DNA from: Pyrocephalus nanus
Lineage: Eukaryota > Chordata > Aves > Passeriformes > Tyrannidae
DNA length: 64,000 nucleotides
NCBI GenBank assembly: GCA_038380795.1
Contig: CM076267.1
Span: 36,642,232 to 36,706,231, forward strand
Direction of reading: 5' to 3'
Below, one piece after another: positions 7,199 through 58,300 of the stretch. The translations under genes were made by a program, and so were the position numbers. Below the pieces are notes generated by a model. That model made no database searches, had not been told where the DNA came from, and worked only from the letters and a program-made list of their open reading frames with translations. Position 1 is the first letter of the stretch, and every line of letters begins with the position of its first letter.

Positions 7199-7410
7199 CA
7201 CGAGCAGGGACACCTCCCACTAGCCCAGGTTGCTCCAACCTGGCCTTGAAGACACTTCCAGGGATGGGGCAGCCACAGCTTCTCTGGGAATTCCATCCCT
7301 GCCCCTCCCCACCTTCCCAGGGAAGAATTCCTTCCCAACATCCCACCTAACCCTGCCCTCTGGCAGTAGGAAGCCATTCCCTGTGTCCTGTCCCTCCAGG
7401 CCTTTGTGAA
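7199..7410 (-). mobile_element. CR1 LINE 3' fragment
   Basis: Antisense, extending further 5' than most ('attccctgtgtcctgtccct'). Confidence 0.9.
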
Positions 7411-12976: not shown

Positions 12977-13110
12977 TTAGGTGTGTTCGTGGAGCAGGAA
13001 TTGTTTGATGGGGTCTGGGACGGGCAGGATGTGGATGAGGTCCAGGCGGGATTTGCCGAGGGTTCTCCGGATGGCGATGCGGCACAGGGACAGGAGGCTG
13101 CGGGGCCGGC
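12977..13110 (-). CDS. ASB1: ASB1 exon 5 (SOCS box, stop)
   Basis: Acceptor CTTGCAG, phase 1 in; encodes RPRSLLSLCRIAIRRTLGK and LPVPDPIKQFLLHEHT, stop TAA at 12977-12979. This is the whole elongin/CUL5 binding SOCS box. The acceptor just upstream is the last of five copies in a 35-36 bp tandem repeat. Confidence 0.95.
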
Positions 13111-16100
13111 CTGCAAGGAAAACATGGAATCACTGAGGGGATGGCCTGCAAGGAAAACATGGAATCACTGAGGGGATGGCCTGCAAGGGAAAACATGGAA
13201 TCACTGAGGGGATGGTCTGCAAGGGAAAACATGGAATCACTGAGGGACGGGGACAGGAGATGTGGGGATGGCCTGCAAGGGAGAACACAGAATCGCTGCG
13301 GGATGGGGACAACGGCACAAATCCTCCGCTCCGGGAACTCCAACCTCACTTACCCCTGGCTTCCCTGAACACCTCCAGCGCCTCGGGGTTGACTCTGACC
13401 CTCGCCGTGGACTCCACCGCCAAGGCCTCCAGCTTGACCAGGCTGAGGTCTGCCCCGAAGTCGACCAGCAGGCGGACGAAGGCGGCGTCGCAGCCGTGGC
13501 GCAGCACGGCGTCCATCACGCACACCGGCGAGCCCCTGGAGAAGCCCTGCAGGTTGACGGGCCCGCAGCAGTTGAAGTCGGGGTCGGCTCCCGCCCGGAG
13601 CAGCAGCTGGAAGCACGGCAGGTTGTGGTAGGCAGCGCTGATGTACAGCGGGCACACCACCAGCGTGGTGAGGGGCCGCGAGCAGTGGCCGCGGGCGGGC
13701 GGGTGGTGGTTCACGTCCACGTCCGCGCCGTACCTGCGTGGGCACAGGGAAGTGAGCACCCAGGGAGAACCCCTGCCTGTCTCTGGCACCTCTGGGTCCC
13801 ACCAGCCATGAAGTGCCACCCTCAGGTGGGGCTGGAGGGGTTTCGGATTAGGGACAACCCGGCCGGCCGCGGGAGGATCTTTCGGAAGCAAAGCTGGTTT
13901 TCCCAGGATTTGGGAAGAGGAGGAGCAGCTGGGAAACATCTTCCCTTGCCCTCCTGTGTTGGGTTTGAATGGCCAGGTTTTGCTAGTTGGGGGGGGGGGG
14001 GGGGGGGGGGGCTCCAAGTGTGGTTTTTCCAACAGCTTTTCCATGTCCGGCAGAGGCAATTCCAGCCCCAGGACTGACCTGCCACTGGCCAAGGCAGAGC
14101 CCATCGGGAATGAGAGCAGTGCCTCTGGGATAACAAATTTAAGAAGGAAAAAAATAGATGGAAGATGAAACTGGAGCAGTTCCTGAAGGACTGACCCCAT
14201 GGAACAGTGGAGGCACTAATTTCCATCTCCTTCCCATACAGCTTGGATGGGAAGAAGGAGGAAGTCACCCCAATCCCTAAGGAATGGCTGGTTTTAACCA
14301 CTGCAGACCGAGCAAAGCCCTGCCCCTTCTCCCCACAGAGGGATAAAAGGTTTTCTCACCCACCAATTCCCCTCCCCAAATTGCAAACTGGGTGCTCAGA
14401 GATCCTCCTGGCTTCCTAGACACCATTATATCCCTTGCAGGAGCCGATAAAAACAAGGAAAATCCCAGGGGACAAACCCTGCCTCAGAACAAGCCCAGTT
14501 CTCCCTGAGACTGGCAACTCTTTACCCAAATCCTTCAATTCTGAGAGGGGGAAGAGCCCCAGGCACACCCAGACCCAGGGCTGAGACTCCTCCAAGAGCT
14601 GCCAATGGCACGAAGTGGATTTTCCGCTTGAAATAACATTCCAGGAGCATTTGGATGGAGTGCCACTTCCATAGGGTGAACTCCTGAGCAGGGAGCAGGT
14701 ATCCCTTCATTTCAGTCCTTCTTTTTTCCCCCAAAAAACCCTCAGAGGAAACCCTCAATTCCAAGCAAAACCCCAAATTCCACTTTGTCAGACAGGCACC
14801 TGAAGCAGCAGGGGGATGTGCCAGCTCTCCTTTTTCCCTGTTTTAACCTGGAGAAAGGATCCTCTCATCCTTGCCGGATCAGCCACTGCAACCCATCCCG
14901 TCCCCAGCTGTGAGGGAAGTCATCTCCCCCCGAAATATTTCCAGCAGCTGCCTCCTGAAACGGATCACCATCCCAGAGATGTGTGGATTTACTACCAATG
15001 GATACGATTCTCCCTCCTCCTTGGGTCGGGAATGCTCAGGGATCCCGACTGTGCTATGGTGTGTGATTTTAAACCCAGAATTAACCAGGTGAGGTTTATA
15101 CAACCTGACTCAGCTGGGCTGTCTGGGGCCTGCAATATTTCCTTATATCCTAGGAAAAGTGTCCCTTCCCCATGGCATTCCCTCTGCCAGCTCCAAAACC
15201 TCGGAGAGAGCTGCACCTTTAACTAAGTCACTGCCTGGACCTGTGAAATCCCTGCTCAGGGTTACCTGACATTTTGGGCAATCTGACAATTTGGTATTAA
15301 CTGAGCAGCCTTGGGAGAGACATTCCCAAATAAAAAATAATAATAAAAAAAAAAGGGACTGGACAAACTCCAGTTCATTTTTAAGCCTGAAAGTTTTCCA
15401 AAAATCTTGCTTTTAATATTGCTGGCAAGGTATCCCGAGGAGCAGACACATAAATCAAGGCACCAGCTCTCTCTGGGCTGCTGAAAATCCCATTTGCTGC
15501 ATTCCAGCCTGGCTGGGGGGAGTGGATCAGGGGAGATTTTTGGGAATCAACAAGCCCAGGGTGAAGAAGGACCAGTGGGACACCGCTGGATGCACAGCTG
15601 GGGATGATCTCCTGCTTGGTGTTCCTCTCTCCTTTCCCCCCCCTAGCTCCTTTCTGCTGCTTTCCATCTCCCTCCCTCACATTTACTGTGCCCTAAAATC
15701 CCTGCTGTGGATTCAGCACAGGGCCCAAAATCACCACATCTGCTGCCACACCTGGATTTGGGCAGAGGCACCTCTCGATAGCCACACCATGACAACCCCT
15801 GTCCCCACTCCAGGCTGTCCCCAGCTCCCACCTGATGAGCTCCTGCAGGATTTCTGTGCCATAACCACACTTGTCCCCACTCCGTGGTGTCCCTGAGTTC
15901 CCACCTGATGAGCTCCTGCAGGATGTCCAGCCCTGTCCCCAGCTCCCACCTGATGAGCTCCTGCAGGATGTCCAGCCCTGTCCCCAGCTCCCACCTGATG
16001 AGCTCCTGCAGGATGTCCAGCCCTGTCCCCAGCTCCCACCTGATGAGCTCCTGCAGGATGTCCAGCCCTGTCCCCAGCTCCCACCTGATGAGCTCCTGCA

Positions 16101-18718
16101 GGATGTCCGCCCGTCCCACTCTCGCCGCGTGGTACACGGGAGTGCTGCGGTGGTGGCGGCTCCCGTTGGGATCAGCCCCGGCCTCCAGCAGGATCTTGGC
16201 GCACTCCAGGTGCCCGTTGACCACGGCCACGTAGAGGGCCGTCTGTCCCTTGACGTCCACCAGGTCGATCTCGGCCCCTTTCTGCAGCAGGAAGTCCACG
16301 CAGGGCCCGTGGCCGGCGGTGGCCGCGATGCGCAGGGGGGTGCAGGGCAGCCACCCGCAGCACCACACCGACTTCTCGTTGATCCGGCTGCTCCACGGCG
16401 AGAACCGGGCGTCAGAGAGGCCTTCCAGCTCCCAGAGGGGACGCTGGGACAGCCCAAAGTGCCCCCCTGGCACACGGGCATTGAGCAGGCTCCCTGGGGC
16501 AGCGGTGCCAGGGCTGTCCCGTTCGGACACACCTCAGGGACAGGGGGGGATTGTTGGGGTGGCCTGGGCAGGGCCAGGGGTGGGGTCAGGTGATCCCTTC
16601 CAGCTCAGGATATCCCAGGATTTTGGGCACTTTTTCAGCAACCCTAAAAAGCCCCTGTCAGTAACCTGAGAGGTGCTGCATGGAGACATAGCTGGGAGCA
16701 GGGCCTGGAATTTGGGCTTGCTCCCAGCTCTGCCCCAAAACTCAGGCAAAGTCATTAGTAAAGAATATAAACCACTGCCCTACTCCCCTTTGGCAGGGAA
16801 ATATCCCACATTGCTGGGGCTGCCCTGCCCCTGGAAGTGTTCAGGGCCAGGTTGGAGCAACCTGGGACAGTGGAAGGTGTCCCTGCCCATGGAACAGGAT
16901 GAGCTTTAGGGGCCTCCCAACCCAAACCAGTCTGTGATCCCATGGCTCCATGAAATCAGCAGTGACCAAGCTGGGGATCACAACCAAGCTGCTCCAAAGG
17001 GTGCAGAAAGCCACCAAAGCTGCAGGGAAACGGCAAGAGGACACAGGAGAAAGGGGGAAAGGTATGGAAAATGTCGGGATGCAGCTCTGTCACAGCACCA
17101 GCAACATCCACACTCAGCCAGGGACCACGGCATGACTTAATCACAAATCCAGGGAAACTCAGTTTGGGAGGAGCAGCCATCCTAAGAAAGGGTATCCAAC
17201 CCTTGCTGGATGGCTGGACAGGGATAAAGGCCTTTCCCAATTTACAGAAGGAGATGGCTCTGGTAAAGGAGCAGTATAACCCCCCACATCGAGCCCTAAG
17301 CTGTCGAGTCTTAAAATTAAAGTGCTCCCTTTATCCTTGGGGATTTGGGGAACTCCAGATCCACCCCCACAATCAAAGACATCCCTTCCCTGCTCCCTCC
17401 GTCACCTGTGTGATGGTGCTGTGGGTCCAGCCCTCCTCTTCCTGTCAAGCTCTGCTTTTTCCTGCACAGAACCCCTCAGGCCAAGGGTCCAAAGAGCCCC
17501 AGCTGCCCAGGGGGCAGAAAGAGGGTCTGGCTCATTCTCCTTTTTTGCTGAATTGACACTTTTTTTGAGACCAGGACACACTTAGCCCTCCAAGCAGATT
17601 TCTCCATGGTGCAGGAAAATTAATTAACTATCCCCAGGGTTGGCACTGGGCAGAGTTTGTAGCATGGGGTGTTTCGGGTTTACAGCTGATTGTAATCCCT
17701 TCTGTGTGTTTTTCCCGCTATCCGTGGGCTGCAGTTTTCATGGGATCACATTCCTACCCTGACCTGAAAAGAGTTTGTGCACGGCCACCACACTCTGGTG
17801 TGAGATCTGTGTCCTGGGAGACCAGGGGGGATGATCTGGGGAGGGGTGAATGGAGCATCCTCTCACCCTGACATCTCTCCCACAAAAACCCTCAGCCCTG
17901 GAAGTGTCCAAGGCCAGGTCGGAGGGACATGCGAGTTCAGTGGGAGGTGTCCCTGCCCACGGCAGGGGGTGGGACTGGATGAGCTTTAAGGTCCCTCCCG
18001 ACCCAAACCACTCTATGAAAAGCAGGTTGAGATGACAGTCCCTAAAGGTGCAGGCTGTGGGGACAGAGAGCAGAGCATCCTTGGAGACACGTCTCCACAA
18101 AAAATGAGGTGAAATGGGGGTCCCCAAAAGGCACAGGCTGTGGGGATGGAGAGTGGAGCATCCTTCCACCCTGACACCTCTCCCGTTAAAACCCCATCCC
18201 TGGAAGTGTCCAAGGCCGGCTTGGAGCAACCTGGGCTGGTGGGAGGTGTCCCTGCCCGTGGCACGGGGCGATGGAACGAGATGATCTTTAAGGTCCCTCC
18301 CAACCCAGCCCGCTCTGCGCGCACCGGGGTGCGATGGGGTCCCCAAAAGGCGCCGGGACGCACCGTCGCCGCATCCTCGGGAGCTCGCCGTGCCCCCCCA
18401 GGGTCTCCCCGCCCTCGCCCCCGGGAGCTCTCCTCACCTCTGGAAGCTCTCGTCCTGGAGCAGGCTGCGCAGGGTGGGCAGGTCCCCCACGAAGGCGGCG
18501 TCGTGCAGCCGGGTGTCCTCGCAGTGCTCCAGGGGGTGGTCGCAGAACTGCTCCTTCAGCCATTCCTTCAGGTTCCGACCTGCGCTGGAGGGAGACACGG
18601 CGGGGAGCCGGGATGAGCCCCGGGATGAGCCCTGCGTGCGTGTCCCGGCACAGCCCCCCGAGCCCCCCTGCCCACGGTACCTGCCCGGGGCGGGCGGGGG
18701 GTCCCCGCCCTCCGCCAT
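12977..18718 (-). CDS. ASB1: ASB1, ankyrin repeat and SOCS box protein 1 (complete, 5 coding exons)
   Basis: Join of 18681-18718, 18438-18584, 16085-16387, 13354-13733 and 12977-13110 gives 1002 nt, 333 residues, against 335 in human ASB1. All borders are GT/AG and all phases close. The protein starts MAEGG, has ankyrin-type repeats at about residues 35-280 (HDAAFVGD, TPLRIAATAGHG, TALYVAVVNGH, TPVYHAARVGRA, PLYISAAYHN) and a C-terminal SOCS box with a BC-box (SLLSLCRIA, 294-302) and Cul5-box (LPVP, 318-321). In the family, the SOCS box binds elongin B/C and CUL5-RBX2 while the ankyrin repeats choose the substrate for ubiquitination. The exact residues recalled for human ASB1 (for example EQFCDHPLEHCEDTRLHDAA) make the assignment firm. 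The odd features are the minisatellites on the exon 3 donor and the exon 5 acceptor, described separately. Confidence 0.96.
13111..13312 (-). repeat. 35-36 bp minisatellite covering the ASB1 intron 4 acceptor
   Basis: Copies of the acceptor motif (minus strand TTCCTTGCAG or TTCCCTTGCAG) occur with plus-strand 'ctgcaagg' starting at 13111, 13146, 13181, 13217 and 13273. The repeat occupies most of the 243-nt intron between exon 4 and exon 5. Copies are near-identical apart from single-base changes and a longer fourth interval (56 bp). Confidence 0.95.
13354..13733 (-). CDS. ASB1: ASB1 exon 4 (ankyrin repeats 5-6)
   Basis: Acceptor CACGCAG, donor GTAAGT, phase 2 in and 1 out. Reads YGADVDVNHH, VCPLYISAAYHN, GADPDFNC and VMDAVLRHGCDAAFVRLLVD in order, closely matching human ASB1 from residue 163 to about 290. 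Confidence 0.95.
13989..14011 (+). repeat. Homopolymer G23 in ASB1 intron 3
   Basis: Uninterrupted run of 23 G on the plus strand, so C23 in the ASB1 transcript. Could form quadruplex DNA, and is a likely place for assembly or sequencing error. Confidence 0.9.
15896..16108 (-). repeat. 45-bp minisatellite spanning the ASB1 exon 3 donor
   Basis: A 45-bp unit with donors at 16083-16084, 16038-16039, 15993-15994, 15948-15949 and 15903-15904, exactly 45 apart. Each unit holds the exon end (GACATCCTGCAGGAGCTCATCAG) and donor GTGGGAGCTG. A sixth, displaced copy of the donor lies at 15830-15831. The unit is 15 codons and stays open in the exon 3 frame (DILQELIRWELGTGL per unit). Confidence 0.97.
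16085..16387 (-). CDS. ASB1: ASB1 exon 3 (ankyrin repeats 2-4)
   Basis: Encodes residues 62-162, starting SRINEKSVWCCGWLPCTPLR and ending ...RADILQELI. The chosen end (donor GT at 16083-16084) reproduces human ASB1, where this exon joins to the YGADVDVN exon. The acceptor is a tandem GAGCAG; the downstream AG is chosen because it keeps the human length. The last 23 nt of the exon with the donor are the founder unit of a 45-bp minisatellite running into intron 3. Confidence 0.93.
16545..16625 (+). mobile_element. CR1 fragment, older subfamily (ASB1 intron 2)
   Basis: 'ggattgttggggtggcctgg' and 'gatcccttccagctcaggat', sense. Confidence 0.75.
16820..16945 (+). mobile_element. CR1 LINE 3' fragment (ASB1 intron 2)
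   Basis: Sense; 'ggttggagcaacctgggaca' to 'aaaccagtctgtgatccc'. Confidence 0.9.
17890..18020 (+). mobile_element. CR1 LINE 3' fragment (first copy of duplication)
   Basis: Sense; carried in the intron 2 tandem duplication, 'aaaccactctatga' end. Confidence 0.9.
18195..18318 (+). mobile_element. CR1 LINE 3' fragment (second copy of duplication)
   Basis: Sense; same upstream flank as the copy at 17890, consistent with duplication rather than separate insertion. Confidence 0.9.
18438..18584 (-). CDS. ASB1: ASB1 exon 2
   Basis: Acceptor CTCCAG, donor GTGAGG, phase 2 in and out. Encodes residues 13-61, including NLKEWLKEQFCDHPLEHCED and the first ankyrin repeat (RLHDAAFVGDLPTLRSLLQ). Intron 1 is only 96 nt and GC-rich. 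Confidence 0.95.
18681..18718 (-). CDS. ASB1: ASB1 exon 1 (coding part)
   Basis: Start codon at 18716-18718 in a CpG-rich setting; reads MAEGGDPPPAPG and ends in phase 2 at donor GTACCG. No in-frame alternative start is needed because human ASB1 also begins MAEGG. Confidence 0.92.
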
Positions 18719-22603: not shown

Positions 22604-22686
22604 CATCCATCCATCCATCCATCCATCCATCCATCCATCCATCCATCCATCCATCCATCCATCCATCCATCCATCCATCCATCCAT
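22604..22686 (+). repeat. (ATCC)n tetranucleotide microsatellite, about 20 copies
   Basis: Perfect 'atcc' repeat on the plus strand; intergenic. The same tetranucleotide occurs in opposite orientation at 43093-43158. Confidence 0.98.
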
Positions 22687-41400: not shown

Positions 41401-44400
41401 AGATGGCTGCTGATGGTTGTCCCAGCTGTCAAACAGCTCCAGGGAACAAAGCCAGAGGTTTCCATCCCAAGGCACTGCAATCCATACCCGGCCCATCTTC
41501 CCTGCTCCAACTCCCACCACGAGGTCACCCCTGGAATATCTGAAGTGTCCCAAGCTCTGGAAATCCCTCACAAAGCTTTGCCTTGCCTTGCTTTCCCCCA
41601 GCTGGCTCTTCAACTCAAAGAAAACCCAGGAAGGGGAACACAAACACAGAACGAATATCCCGGGAAATTCCTTTTTGCACCGGCCAAAAGTTCATCCCTG
41701 GGAATCCCAGGATCACCGAGGTTGGAAAAGACCAGACCTCCAAGATCATCAGGTCCAACCTCTGGCCTTGCCTGTTTTGGTGGGGTTTTTTTAACAAGTA
41801 TCATCTTTTCCTTTATAACCCCCAAAATTCCCAAAGAGCGAAGGGCAAGATTTTCAGATCCTTGAGAAATGACTGAATGGTTCAGAAAAGAAGTGAAGTT
41901 TGGATTCCCCGAGTAAATTTAGGAAGGGCAAATATTAGTGAGTGATAAAATGATCAACTTAGAGTCCATGGCTGTAGGATTTTTATACAGAACAGCACAT
42001 TTTGCCTCACAAACCCCTTCCATCTTCTCAAACAACCTTAAATGACATATCCTAAGCCTTACTAAAGCACTGTGCTTTTACAAATTCTGAATTTACAAGT
42101 GTTAAATATGCCAGGAACAGCTGCAGACAATTCAAAAAGCCCATTTAGAGAGAACACAATAATTACCAAGACAAGAGAATTAATCCCTGCATGAGAAACG
42201 TGAGCAAACTGAACCGAATTTCACTTTTTCTGGTCCAAATCGAGGCAGGAAAATTGCCTCTTGGATTCATAAATGCAGGCTGGGAGTATAAACAGAGGCC
42301 TGACAATAATAAACAAGGATATTGCAGCATTTCTGCTGCTCCTATTCCAGCACACTGGATAGAAATAATCATATCCTGCCCCTGGTTACCTTCTCCTGTG
42401 GGTTTGGAGCGTTGCCTCGATCCTTTGGTTGAAGGCTGCCTCGATGTCCCTGCAGGGCTTTCACTCTGGAAAAGAAATCCCAGAAATTTATCCAACTGCA
42501 GATCTAAAAATCCTGTCATTACATCTAAAATTTACTCCTTATGCATCGAAATGGTTCTCTTCAGAACTGACCCCCACATTTTGAGTTTGCTTCCCTCATA
42601 GGCTGCCGGTTTTCTTTTTTCCTGGATATATCCAGGGTCAGACTTCCTAAGTGTAAAAACCAACTTCCAAATGGGAATCAGGAGTGTCCAACCCTGTGGA
42701 AGTTGTGGAGCATCCGTGAGGCCACTGCTGCTCTTGGGATCTGATGTTTGGCTCCTGAAAGGAGTCAGACGCTTCCAACCCCCTCACAACCTGCCAGGAA
42801 ATCTCCTAAATTTCCTTCCAAAACAGAAACAAGGACAAGTGGATTTATTTGTTTATTTACGTCAGGCAGGGGCCACAAACACCGGCTTTGCAGAGCCCCT
42901 GTCAGCAGGTGCAGGGTAAAAACTGACATTTCCTCAAAATCCCACAGTATTTACGATTTGGGGCTTTCCAAAGGGAAGGAAAAGAGGTCATTTCCCTTTC
43001 TTAGGGATTCCCGGGCTTTGAAAAGCAGCCACTGGAGCCACTGAAGGGAAATCTTACACTTCAACCTGGAAAAAACACATTTTGTGGAATCCTGGATGGA
43101 TGGATGGATGGATGGATGGATGGATGGATGGATGGATGGATGGATGGATGGATGGATGCTTCCCAGTTCTGAGTGATTACAGAGAGAGGATCCAGCAAAC
43201 CATCCATTCTGCTGCTCTGGCCTCATTATTAACCTCTGAATAGCTTGAATTTCACTTTAAAACATGGGAAAATGAGTTTTGCTGATGTTATAACACTCAT
43301 TAGATCATTCTCCTATCCAAATCATCACCTCCACCAATAGGTAGAGAATAATAACTAAGAATAAACAAATAATAAAAAATAAGAATGAAGCAAGTGAACA
43401 GAAACTCAATTCCATCAGCCCTCAAAAAAATACCTTTTCTTTTTCCCCTGCTGAGATCCCCAGGGCCAGGAGGTGTACCTGCATTTCCACCACAGATAAT
43501 GTGTGCCAGGATCATTTTATGTAAATTAAACAGACACAGGGGAAGATCTCGACTCGCTAAGGCCGATTTCAGTGCTGTGGGTGAGGAGGCTTATCAGGAA
43601 AACACCCCTCAATCACCTCACAAGACGAGGTTCATCTGCACATTAAACACTTTGCAAAGACAGAAAGATTGGGAAAACCCCTCATTTTGAAGCCTGAGCT
43701 GAAATGGTGGATTTCCAACCAAAATGAGGGGGTCACTCCCAGCAGATTTCCATGGAATGATTCTCTCTGCTGGCTTTTTTCATTCCATAGTTTGGTTATA
43801 ACATCCAGACAGGCTCCAGCAGAAGGAGAAGTTCATCAGATCTCATTCAAGGGACCATTTCCAGAGCGCTGTGGTCCGGAGGGCACCAATAAAACTCATT
43901 TTCTGAGTGGCCAAAAGTGACAGGATATTAAAAAAAAACCCTTTAGCCAAGAGTTTCAGCAGCCACAGGAAACAGGGAGGAGCCTTTTCCAAGGTGTTTG
44001 GCCTCAGGGATAAACGACAAACCTGTCCTGTTCCCCTTCCAGCCCAGGAGCACCACGTGCTCCGTGACCTCCAGCACCTTCTGTGCAAAGGCAAAGACAT
44101 CCTGATTATTGACAAGGTCAAAAAAAAAGCCATTTTAAATATGATTTTTTTTTTGTTTGGTTTTATGCAAGGTGGACTGAGAGTGAACAGAACAACTCCA
44201 TCCTGATCCCAAACTGTGGAATGCAAGAGCCAGCCCTGAGGCAGCTTCTGATGGCCACGTGTTGCCCAAATGTCTCTTAATTCCTGCTTATCCTTGCTTT
44301 CTTCTAGCTCCAGAAAATTAGAGATATGCCCACGGGATGGCTATTGCACAACATACAGAATTGCTTTTCAGGGACAGAAAAATACACTGAAATTAAAAAA

Positions 44401-47400
44401 AAAATAAAAAATAAAGACAACCTGTCAAAATTTAAGTAGATATTCAAGCTTGGATAATCAGCGACAAGAGGAATTAAGACTTTGCCCCAGTGCACAGAGA
44501 ATCTTGTTAAGATCCTTAATTTTACAGGAGCAAAGCCAAGGGCTAAACTTTGAAGGCTTTGCTGCACATGTAGAACATGAATTAAAAAAAAAAAAAAAGG
44601 CTGAATTGATTTGTTTTTTAAAGGAAACCCAGAGAAAAGGTAAAAAGGTTTAATCTCATTTTTGCCTTCCACAACCTTTTGTCCTGCACTGCTTTAAAGG
44701 GTGTGTTTTCATCACCCAAAAAACCCCACAATAAATCAGCAGCCTCTGCTCTTACACAAGCAAAGAGAGGCAGGAATGTCCTCTAGATCTCAGGGAATAA
44801 AACCCACTTCCAAGCCTTGGAATCCCTCCCAAAAGCACTTCAGAGGGGAAATGAAACTTGACTGCCCCGTGGATGATCGTGGTGCCCAAGAGCAGGACGA
44901 GAGCTCGGGATGAGGCTCCCAATTTCCATCAGAGCCCCCACCTGCAGGAAGTTTGACTTAGCCAGGAACGTTTTCTTGGGGCTTAAAACAAAAACAAAAC
45001 AAAACAAAACAACAAAACTTATTTCATAAGCTCTGCCTCCAAGTGGCAGCAATTTAAAAGGTTTTGCTTGGATTGCAGCCAAGGAAGAGCTGTGGATTTG
45101 TCACCCAAACTAGTGTTAAGGCATGATAATAAATAAATAAAAAACCCCAACAGTTTCCCAGGGAAGATCCTGAGGAATAAGGAGAACCCCCAGGGCAGGG
45201 GGTTGGAAGGAGATGAGCTTTAAGGTCCCTCCCAACTCGAGCCACCCTGGGATTTTGGGAACTTGGAACAAACAAATCTTTCCCCTGGAGCACCCAACAC
45301 ATCAGCACCCAGGAATTAAATATGGAAAATGAAATAAACTGAGCACATCTTTAATAAATAAATAACCAACCAACCAGACAAGTATCTGTTCTGTGTCATT
45401 TACAGCCCTGTGTCATTTACAGCCCTAAAAACTTGCTATCTACCTACCTTTCCATCAAAATCTTTCCAAGGAGACTCCCAAATCATTCTAAGGTGCAACA
45501 CTCTCAATATTCCTGTATTTCCCACTACTGACCTCATTATCTGGCTGGCACTTGCTGTCTTTAGTTGGCCTCTGTGCTTTCCTAAGTGTGGATTCCTCAG
45601 GATCTGTGGGCTGCAAAAGGAATGATCTGGTTTAGATTCCATTTACCAAAATTAAGCTCCCTCCTAACACAGAAGCATCTCTGATGCCCATCAGTCCTGA
45701 ATTTCTGCCATGAAGAGAGCAGAAGAGGAGAACAGGAATTATTTAGGGGAGAAAGAGAAGATAAGAACAACAACAAAACGAAAGGCAATGAAGAGATGGC
45801 TCTTAAGGAAGTTTAGGATTTAGAATCAGGGAATCCCAGAATGGTTTGGGTTGGAAGGGACCTTACAGACCAACCCCTTCCAGCCTTCTGACAGGCTGGG
45901 AGAGCTGGGGATGGAGAAAAGAAGACCCCAGGGAGACCTTAGAGCCCCTTCCAGGGCCTAAAGGGGCTCCAGGAGAGCTGGAAAGGGACTGGGGACAAGG
46001 GATGGAGGGACAGGACACAGGGAATGGCTTCCCACTGCCAAAGGGCAGGGAGAGATGGGATATTGGGAGGTAATTGTTCCCTGTGAGGGTGGGGAGGGAC
46101 TGGGATGGAATTCCCAGAGAAGCTGTGGCTGCCCCATCCCTGGAGGTGTCCAAGACCAGGATGGAGCACCCTGGGCTGGTGGAAAGTGTCCCTGCCCATG
46201 GCAGGGGGTGGGACTGGATGGTGTTGAAGTCACCTCCACAAGAATCCAGATGGGCTTCCCAGCAGTTCTCCCAATTAAAAAAAAAAAAAAAACAAAAAAC
46301 AAAAAAAAAAAAAAAACCAAAAAAACAAACCAAAGGACAAAAAGCCAAGCAGCTTAATCTAGAAAGTCAGAAAAAAATAATACAGAAGTGCAACCCCAGG
46401 CTTTGTGTCCTGCTCCCGAATCCACCCCAGGACCTTCCCCTCAGCAGAGGAGCTGCTGCTGCAGGGAGGACTGAATTACCAAAGGGGCAGAGATAGAACC
46501 AGGGGAGGTCTCTGGAACAACCACAGCATGGGCAAAGTTCTTCTCTGCAGTGACACTGCCCTTACCTTTCTCTCTGCTCTCTCCTTGCCACGTTCCCAGA
46601 GATGCTCCTCGTCCTTCTCCTTGTCCCTGTGTCTGTCCCAGTCTCTTCCTCTCTCTCTGTCCTTCTCTCCTTCCCTGTCCCTGGCCTTCTCTTTGCCTCT
46701 TCCTTTCACTCTGTCCTTTTCTCTTTCTCCTTCATGTTTCTTCTCTCTTTCCTGTCCTTTCTCACGCTCCAGATCATCTTCTGCATCCCCTTTTCCTCTG
46801 CTTTTTTCCGCTTCTCTTCCTTGCTTGGTTGTTTTTCTGCTCCTTTCCCTTTCTTGTTTTTCTCCTTCCCTCGAGGTCTCACGTTCAGGCTCTTTGTGCC
46901 TCTCTTTATTATCCTTCTGTTTCTCACCTTCCTTCTCCCTTTCTCTGCCCTCTTTGGGTTTGCTGTCTCTGCTCGAGCTCCTGTCTTTGATTTCAGGGTC
47001 TCTCCTGCTCTAAAAACAAAGTCAACACTCCAAGTGAATTCCAGTGTCACTCAGTGACTTTACACAGACAACAATACAAGTTAGAAAAACCCAAACAAAT
47101 AAATAACACCCTCCAAAAAACCAACCAACCAACCAAACAAACAAACCCAAAACACCAAAAAAAGCAAATTCTACCTCTTTCTCCCTGTGGCTTTTTGGTT
47201 CTTCTGGTTTGGACTCCCTGCTTTCTTTCTCCCGAGGTTTGGAGGATGGAGGTTTCCCTTTAGGATCAGCTCTTTCCCCAGCTAAGACCCTTTTCACAGC
47301 AGCATCACTGGAGAGCTGCAAGGAACAGGAAAATAGCAGGGAAATGAGGAAATTCTTTTAGGAAATGTCTCCTTTTTTCCCAACTCTGTGATCGGCATGA

Positions 47401-55333: not shown

Positions 55334-58300
55334 CTGCAGGAAGAGAACAGTCAGGAAGGGGGTTAATCCCAGTCCAGAGCTTCAGCACCCACAGCAGATG
55401 AGCCTGGACTGATCCCCAGCTCCCAGGGAGGTGTAAGAATGAACCACATGTAAGAATGAATGACAAACAAAGTCAAGGAATTCACTTTTCCTCATCCCCA
55501 CAGGGTTGCAACAGAAAAAACGGGAGGCTCCCTGGAGGAACTCAGAGCCAGCAGTTGGAATGATCCCAGGGCTTCCTGCGGGACCACTGGAATTCTGTGC
55601 TCTGAGAGCACCCTGTACCAGTGGCCCAAAAAACCAGCCAGGTATCAAACTAATAAATGGAATCCCACACTGGTTGGAGTTTGGAAGGGACCTGAAAGCC
55701 CATCCAGTGCCATCCCCTGCCATGGGCAGGGACACCTTCCACCAGCCCAGGTTGCTCCAAGCCCTGTCCAACCTGGCCTTGGACACTCCCAGGGATCCAG
55801 GGGCAGCCACAGCTGCTCTGAAGAGCAGCACAGAACAGTTTTTGTAACAACAAAGAAATGCAAACACTCAGTACCTTTTCTTTTTTTCCAGGGCCAGCTG
55901 CCTTTGCTTCTCTTTCCCAATGTCATCTCTCACGGTGCTGAAGTCCTTGGTGTCATCAAGGAGAAGGTTCTGTCGTGGAGAAGGATTTGACAGCCATGAA
56001 AGTCAGAAGGTCAAACCATTCCCCACCTGTTGCTCTGCTGGCTGCTTTAAACCCCAGCCAGTATGTTCTTTCCTTCTCCTAAACAAGCCTGGTTGCTAAC
56101 TCAGAGCTCAGTACACTGCTGGGCAAGTCTTGTTTTACATCTTTAAGTAGATCTGGTTTTTTTTTGGAATATGTAATGGGTTTATACATCTATAATGAGA
56201 TTTTTAAAAGGGCACTGTCCTTGGATTTTACTCAGAATTAGAAAAATAAAAAAAACCAAACCAAAATACAGGCAATTAAATGAGGGCAAGAAAAAAAGAA
56301 CCAGGAGGAAAAGGAGCAGCAGCAGCAGCACATTCCCCATCCACGTGTCCAAACCCACATCCCAGCACTTCCAGAGATTCTGCAGGAAAACCAGGAAGAC
56401 TAAATCCCAGATGACTTACCTTCACCCCAATGATGTCTCCATCCCTCAGGTGATAAGGTGCTGACTGCAAACTCTCCTGCTTTTTCCTCCTTTTCCTCTT
56501 GGAAATCTGCTGTGTCTAAATAATAAATAAATAAATAAATAAATAAAACCAGGAGATTTTCGGAATTCTCCTGAAATACAATCTCAAAGGAAGTGCAGCA
56601 CAAACCAGCACATTCCTCTCCAACAGCTGTTGGACTGTGTCACTGCAGATCTTACCCAGCTGGATATTGGCAGCCACTCAAATCTCTCAGGGAAGTACTT
56701 GGCTATTTCAATTTTCTCTACAGGGAGACAGTAGTGAGAAGCCACTCTCTGCCTCAGTGCCCAGGCGGTGCATTCCTTGGAGATATCCCACACCAAATCC
56801 CTGCAGTCAGAGTAGTCCCTTTCTCCTGGAATTCCCATCTGGACTCGCAGCAGCAGCTCCTGGGGGCTGGCAGCAGGAGGAGAGAACGGACATTCTGAAA
56901 GCAGGACTCACGAGAATTCCCAGTTTTCACTCCCTCCTGCCTTCCCTCACAAAAAACAAGCTCCAAATCTTCCTGAATCCTCCCATTTCTAATCCTGCCA
57001 GCACTGGAGTTAGAAGCTGCTCAGTGCAGGCTCCTCTTAAAGGCAGAGCTGGAAGAAATAAAGTGTCTTGAGCTCTTACCCCAAATTCTCTTCTTTTTGC
57101 AAAGGTTCCATGCAGATTCCCATACTGGCACCCAGCTTGTAGTCACTGCAAACAAAAGAGATCCTCTGCAGCCAGGCTGGGAGAGCTGGGGCTGGAGAAG
57201 GGAAGGCTCCAGGGAGACCTGAGAGCCCCTTGCAGGGCCTAAAGGGGCTCCAGGAGAGCTGGAGAGGGATTGAGGACAAGGGATGGAGGGACAGGACACA
57301 GGGAATGGCTTCCCACTGCCAGAGGGCAGGGAGAGATGGGAGGAATTGTTCCCTGGGAGGGTAGGGAGGGACTGGGATGGGATTCCCAGAGAAGCTGTGG
57401 CTGCCCCATCCCTGGCAGTGTCCAAGGCCAGGTTGGAGCAACCTGGGCTGGTGGAAGGTGTCCCTGCCCATGGCAGGGGTGGGATGGGATGAGCTGTAAG
57501 GTCCCTCCCAACCCAAACCAGTCTCTCATTCCTGTCATCTATCCTGAATCACTCCTTTAATGGATTTGTGCTCACCTGGAACACCACAGCAAGAGGCCAC
57601 TCAAATGAAAAAGCCAGAAAAGCACAAAAATTACTTTAATTAAAACACCTAAATTAAAGCTTAGCAGAATCCTAGAATCCCAGAATGGTTTGGGGTGGGA
57701 GGGACCTTACAGACCATCTCCTTCCAACCTCCTGCCTTGGGCAGGGACACCTTCCACTGGAACAACCGTGGTCCCAGTTTATCCCAATTTAAAAACACGC
57801 TCAGCAAAACTGAAGCAACCAGAAATGGGCTTTCTGCTGACAGGCACCTGATTTATTTCCCCACCAATCCCTCCCACAGTTGCACATTGCCCAGAATAAC
57901 CTACTTGAGTCTCTGCTTGTTGTTCCTCAGGAGCTTTCCCGGGCGTTTGCTGTCCACTGTCCAGGCCCTGAGGAACGAGGGCAGGGGCACAACCTGCTCC
58001 TGGCAGCACGGCAAGGTCAGGGCCTGAAAGAAAGGAACACCTTGTCAGCAACTTCAGCAGCCATTCTCCTTGGAAAAAAAGAGAAAACCACTGGATTAAC
58101 CCCCAAGGCAACACTCAAAATTGCCTTTACTGCACACCAGCTGTTGCCTGTGGTTATGATCAAAATACTCCCTTTTCAACCTCAAAGGGAGTTGGGCTTC
58201 ACTCCCTCCCAACAATTCTCGGCTCAACTTATATTCCAAGAGTACCACATTTCTTTTTTTTAACCAAAATGTGAACATCTGGGAGGGAATGAGGCTGCTG

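Follow-up and report, generated by a model that had tools for sequence, protein, structure and literature searches.

In chicken, Hron et al. (2026) described introns through which an exon border is copied together with its splice donor or acceptor, a phenomenon named exon stuttering that creates potential alternative transcripts. According to the accessible text of that study, 190 of 236 stuttering introns lie on dot chromosomes and 36 on macrochromosomes, which makes the location a preference and not an obligation (PMC12954441). A related human case is the variable number tandem repeat (VNTR) in intron 18 of ABCA7, which begins at the splice donor, is wholly intronic and consists of 12 to ~427 out-of-frame units of 25 bp. 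In the available portions of the report on this VNTR, the first of the two reported donors is the main one and the second accounts for 2 ± 1% of the transcripts in those tissues that were examined, a value that is lowered by decay of the out-of-frame product and may therefore underestimate how often this donor is chosen; longer alleles show lower expression, and exon 19 skipping rises 3.2-fold between the extremes (PMC5954066). Where donors compete, the intron-proximal site can win, and SRSF1 is reported in the accessible part of the source to help it (PMC5585400). ASB1 is not named in the main text of the chicken study (PMC12954441), and the literature searched, which covers few subscription journals, yielded no report of an array at an ASB1 splice site.

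Here we analyzed a stretch of 64,000 nucleotides from Pyrocephalus nanus (GCA_038380795.1, contig CM076267.1, positions 36,642,232 to 36,706,231 of the forward strand), hereafter the window. In a preliminary description of the window, the end of ASB1 exon 3 had been reported to be amplified, splice donor included, into a minisatellite, and our analysis supports this report.

ASB1 gene and its neighbor

The ASB1 coding sequence spans 12977-18718 on the minus strand of the window, where five exons join into a protein of 333 aa: exons 1 and 2 (18681-18718 and 18438-18584), exon 3 (16085-16387, up to its canonical end), exon 4 (13354-13733), whose acceptor is shared by the exon 3 donors, and exon 5 (12977-13110), which encodes the SOCS box. 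The protein contains the Pfam domains Ank and SOCS_box and is 80-95% identical to 20 aligned bird records. As expected of an ASB1 ortholog, it combines ankyrin repeats with a C-terminal SOCS box and has ASB1 proteins as its best matches. Among the best 120 of 1459 passing proteins, the closest was that of Pitangus sulphuratus, which shares 284 of 290 residues over exons 1-4. The window lies at 36.64-36.71 Mb on a 39.13-Mb contig of the 1.07-Gb assembly.

The upstream neighbor of ASB1 on the same strand is TRAF3IP1 (29325-52140, minus strand), with 13 exons placed approximately by tblastn. Its top protein relatives come from Myiozetetes cayanensis, Tyrannus savana and Mionectes macconnelli, which are tyrant flycatchers, as is Pitangus sulphuratus. 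Residues ~306-441 of the Mionectes TRAF3IP1 record match scattered places in the window, including 7227-7403, 45893-46153 and 57228-57425, which suggests that this part of the record may be a dispersed repeat absorbed into the gene model.

Identical donors repeated at the end of exon 3

TRF placed the donor array of ASB1 at 15899-16117, with a period of 45, 4.9 copies and 98% matches. Exon 3 terminates in GACATCCTGCAGGAGCTCATCAG and intron 3 begins with GTGGGAGCTGGGGACAGGGCTG; each 45-nt unit consists of 23 exonic nt, which are the final 23 nt of exon 3, and 22 intronic nt. The first four units (16063-16107, 16018-16062, 15973-16017 and 15928-15972, minus strand) are without a single difference. 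The fifth is represented by its exonic part (15905-15927, minus strand); its 23 exonic nt and its donor are intact, and its intron part has diverged after GTGGGA. The minus-strand CAGGTGGGA donors have their GT at 16084, 16039, 15994, 15949 and 15904, and these five positions, as well as the identity of the CAG/GTGGGA donors and their spacing of exactly 45 nt, were confirmed by TRF and by the sequence as they had been claimed. Five is, however, not the full count: an older copy of the exon end (15830-15854, minus strand), missed in the preliminary description, carries the same donor 9-mer with its GT at 15831, 73 nt past donor 5, and shifts the frame.

We applied the published exon-stuttering screen, in which a blastn-short match in a neighboring intron must be 20 nt or longer and reach 42.1 bits or more (PMC12954441). 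The end of exon 3 passed it with four 24-nt matches in intron 3, each at 48.1 bits and each running to the exon border (base 303 of 303); the sixth copy, at 40.1 bits, stayed under the threshold. When the ASB1 introns were mononucleotide-shuffled 200 times, the best exon-to-intron match reached 34.2 bits, against 48.1 bits in the real sequence. The similarity within the donor array is more than chance by this measure. By the published criterion, one of the five ASB1 exons scores and none of the 13 exons of TRAF3IP1.

Pairing energy with U1 was equal at all six exon 3 donors (-10.3 kcal/mol), and the donors of exons 1, 2 and 4 gave -7.1, -10.2 and -10.5 kcal/mol, respectively. Predicted accessibility was likewise similar across the six donors (0.27-0.40 unpaired), and masking of some donors by RNA structure was rejected because no clear difference appeared. 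Within 15780-16200, no G-quadruplex with G-runs of at least three and loops of 1-7 was found; when loops of up to 12 were allowed, one appeared, at the sixth copy, and two-G patterns are present.

Predicted products of the exon 3 donors

All of donors 1-5 are in frame when spliced to exon 4 at 13733 and keep a normal SOCS box. The canonical donor 1 (GT at 16083-16084, minus strand, as for all donors) gives 333 aa, donor 2 (16038-16039) 348 aa, donor 3 (15993-15994) 363 aa, donor 4 (15948-15949) 378 aa and donor 5 (15903-15904) 393 aa, in agreement with the 0-60 extra residues proposed earlier. The proposed repeat unit of the longer forms, DILQELIRWELGTGL, and its place in the protein, helix 2 of ankyrin repeat 4, also stood. 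Donor 6 joined to exon 4 shifts the frame and meets no stop before the last exon. Because 45 nt equals 15 codons, use of donors 2-5 would add 15-60 residues and the message would not be destroyed, and changes in copy number would likely be tolerated almost neutrally on the donor side.

The frame of exon 3 had been described as open on to 15643, and we found the stop there; the openness itself is, however, weak evidence of coding, because all three sense frames are open across the donor array, as are two of the three frames of the opposite strand. We therefore rejected the open frame as proof of coding. Divisibility of a unit by three arises by luck one time in three, which counts against a mainly coding role, and the donor array may owe its frame neutrality to such luck, since the acceptor array of the same gene breaks the frame. 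Copies 2-5 show no codon change in the window, which a coding role would also explain.

A second array at the exon 5 acceptor

ASB1 contains a second array, which is absent from the preliminary description. Intron 4 is 243 nt long and its 3' part is built of 35/36-nt units in which a pyrimidine tract leads up to TTGCAG, an array that TRF delimits at 13108-13246 (minus strand). Exon 5 could start at the canonical 13110 or at 13145, 13180, 13216 or 13272, the last of which sits just beyond the TRF bounds. Starts at 13145, 13180 and 13216 shift the frame and read past the normal stop, and a start at 13272 is in frame and meets a stop at 13132. In predicted translation, exon 5 is no longer read in its normal frame whichever of the four upstream acceptors is used, the SOCS box is lost, and the stops fall in the last exon. 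No match of exon 5 in intron 4 with an exon part of at least 20 nt passes the exon-stuttering screen, and we therefore regard this array as probable repetition of intronic sequence together with its acceptor rather than exon stuttering. The acceptor-array query matched the 1.07-Gb assembly at its own locus only, in a search that skips simple repeats.

Frequency and uniqueness of the arrays

Together, ASB1 and TRAF3IP1 have 18 exons with 36 ends, of which two fall inside a TRF array of whatever type, both of them in ASB1; the TRAF3IP1 ends in this count are approximate positions from tblastn. The 264 kb around ASB1 contains ten distinct TRF arrays (period of at least 20, at least 3 copies, at least 85% matches), too small a number for firm statistics on the pair at ASB1 splice sites. 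A 501-bp donor-array query (E ≤ 0.001, simple repeats skipped) matched the 1.07-Gb assembly at its own locus and at one other place, and this second match stops 17 nt into the first copy. A dispersed repeat was rejected as the source of the donor array, since the one other match lies outside the extra copies.

Other tandem repeats occur at and near the locus. Strong minisatellites lie near the window at contig positions 36608490-36608939 (21 bp x 21), 36712809-36713269 (20 bp x 23, 99%) and 36781200-36781479 (35 bp x 8, 99%), and the window itself contains perfect tetranucleotide repeats at 22604-22686 (CATC, x 20.8) and 43093-43158 (TGGA, x 16.5).

A related array in Pitangus sulphuratus

The preliminary description had proposed to look for the array in sister species. 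The ASB1 record of Pitangus sulphuratus holds an array that is related to that of the window but different from it, which makes an artifact unlikely. The exon 3-4 junction was surveyed in the best 120 of 1459 passing proteins, of which 89 were readable by a simple pattern and 31 were unmatched and dropped. Among the 89 readable proteins, 81 had no insert, 2 had one extra Ser, 5 had unrelated inserts and 1, that of Pitangus, had the array. When the array region alone served as the query, Pitangus was again the only carrier among 7997 candidates scored, in a database whose clustering at 90% identity may hide others, for example in Myiozetetes or Tyrannus. Phainopepla nitens and Mimus melanotis have the extra Ser (ELISRYGADV), which, judging from the protein sequences, may come from a NAGNAG acceptor.

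Back-translated units of 62, 61, 45 and 45 nt, derived from the protein, exactly reproduce the Pitangus insert. The first copy is intact, and three of the four extra copies carry altered codons in this back-translation. The intron part of the 61-nt form is converted into that of the 45-nt form by the loss of 16 nt, for which there are nine equivalent positions, as expected of a loss between direct repeats. The history of the array may have started with units of ~61-73 nt, from which the 61-nt form would have been cut to 45 nt by the loss of 16 nt between direct repeats, and the 45-nt form would then have multiplied as identical copies.

The Pitangus gene model takes the last donor of its array. 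This model lacks exon 5, and its residues 361-398 match the window at 1159-1272 with 94.7% identity; its last exon is doubtful because these final 38 residues match ~11.8 kb downstream of exon 5.

Predicted consequences for the ankyrin repeats

In an AlphaFold2 model of the Pitangus long form (46 sequences, mean pLDDT 71.8), the ankyrin fold is kept on either side of the insert, the last copy is modeled as the repeat-completing helix (block means 83 and 94), and the preceding copies have pLDDT block means of 30-60. The preference for the last copy may come from the alignment, in which the relatives had been matched to that copy. A model of exon 3 of the window with five copies (23 sequences, mean pLDDT 70.6) shows a helical first copy, followed by copies modeled as short helices with block means of 41-64. 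The groove of ANK3-6 binds the degron in ASB7, according to the accessible text (PMC11263391), and by inference ASB1 substrate binding might be disturbed when residues are inserted at helix 2 of ankyrin repeat 4.

Discussion

We estimate a probability of about 60% that the donor array is an exon-stuttering minisatellite of which the first donor is predicted to be the main one, with longer proteins, still in frame, likely made as a minor fraction from the spare donors. The end of exon 3 and its donor would have been repeated head to tail into intron 3, and because U1 pairs equally with every donor, position and neighboring factors, not strength, would decide which one is used. The first donor is expected to be the main one from its intact copy in Pitangus and from the ABCA7 precedent, as far as the latter is documented in the available text (PMC5954066). 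If splicing slipped to one of donors 2-5, the protein would gain 15-60 residues; if it slipped within the acceptor array, the SOCS box would be lost. Against dominance of the first donor, intron-proximal choice aided by SRSF1 would, by analogy with the part of PMC5585400 that was available, favor donors 4-6, and the Pitangus model uses the last donor, though its last exon is doubtful. Against the class itself, the 39.13-Mb contig is not a dot chromosome and the sixth copy scores only 40.1 bits.

Frequent use of the intron-proximal donors is unlikely in our estimate, yet it would make the array a working coding VNTR, with much of the ASB1 protein carrying 15-60 extra residues and copy number tuning the ankyrin surface and the choice of substrate. 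This explanation stays alive because competing donors elsewhere can favor the intron-proximal site, as SRSF1 does in the accessible account (PMC5585400), and it agrees with five in-frame donors in intact units, with a Pitangus gene model that reads through the array as far as its last donor, and with a unit that holds a whole second-helix sequence, the last Pitangus copy being modeled confidently (83 and 94) where the alignment was matched to it. Much of the same evidence turns the other way: the open frame is uninformative, the extra copies in Pitangus combine frame-breaking 62- and 61-nt units with altered codons (back-translated), the acceptor array of ASB1 breaks the frame, the other copies are modeled at low confidence (30-60 in Pitangus and 41-64 past the first in the window), and the second ABCA7 donor reaches ~2% in the available text (PMC5954066). 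Less probable again is that array length, not the donors, is what matters, so that the donor array would lower expression or cause skipping of exon 4 and the acceptor array would shift the SOCS-less share. Such an effect has a precedent in ABCA7, where longer VNTR alleles reduce expression and increase skipping of exon 19, by 3.2-fold between the extremes (PMC5954066, available text), and ASB1 has arrays at both a donor and an acceptor; the donor array is, however, ~0.2 kb, short like the shortest ABCA7 alleles (~0.3 kb) in the same text. Multiplication of a single true copy by assembly or sequencing might be suspected from four units that are identical letter for letter, but we consider it highly improbable and reject it, since the Pitangus record has a related array with other unit lengths, and since copies 5 and 6 of the window have diverged, which means that the array has a history.

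As an exon-stuttering minisatellite, the ASB1 array would show that a phenomenon described mainly for dot chromosomes of the chicken also occurs in another bird lineage and on a large contig, and it is short enough to be read base by base. The inferred change from a 61-nt to a 45-nt unit would be a route by which a splice-site repeat turns frame-neutral and hence tolerable. ASB1 also offers a natural competition of identical donors at a fixed spacing of 45 nt, with a series of acceptors in the next intron. A wider proposal, which we put forward as speculative and rather doubtful, is that in tyrant flycatchers splice junctions are the mutating unit of ASB1, a ubiquitin-ligase receptor whose donor and acceptor arrays occupy adjacent introns; VNTR alleles would set a graded series of ankyrin lengths and the SOCS-less share, in ratios that are inherited and vary between species and individuals. 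The ASB1 locus combines an unusual, frame-neutral unit with an acceptor array in the next intron, and exon stuttering itself was already known.

Ordinary coding VNTRs are length-variable, in-frame protein repeats inside an exon, whereas the ASB1 array spans an exon-intron border. Tandem overlapping alternative donors and acceptors resemble it as neighboring sites that give slightly different exon lengths, but in the accessible description they come as two sites with extensions of 3-6 nt (PMC2423196), whereas ASB1 has an array of duplicated exon-intron borders. Donor and acceptor competition constructs pose the same choice among donors as ASB1, but, in the available text, in man-made pairs (PMC5585400, PMC1877881). 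ABCA7 is alike in carrying a donor in every unit, and splicing at the second unit has been observed there; the effect mainly measured in the available part of that work is exon skipping (PMC5954066).

The closest likeness is to exon stuttering in chicken, as described in the accessible text (PMC12954441). In both, an exon border with its splice site is tandem-repeated in the adjacent intron, and units of tens of bases, GC-rich exons and potential alternative transcripts are common to the two. Copy number has a median of 4 in chicken and is 5-6 in ASB1; the chicken repeats are imperfect, whereas the ASB1 array has four perfect copies; the chicken cases lie mostly on dot chromosomes, whereas ASB1, on its 39.13-Mb contig, departs from that preference. 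Length variation within the species is central in chicken, and ASB1 is known from one assembly and a difference between two species. The 15-codon unit with its five in-frame donors sets ASB1 apart from the chicken cases in the accessible text, and exon stuttering, whose published BLAST threshold the locus passes, would be the best class for its donor array.
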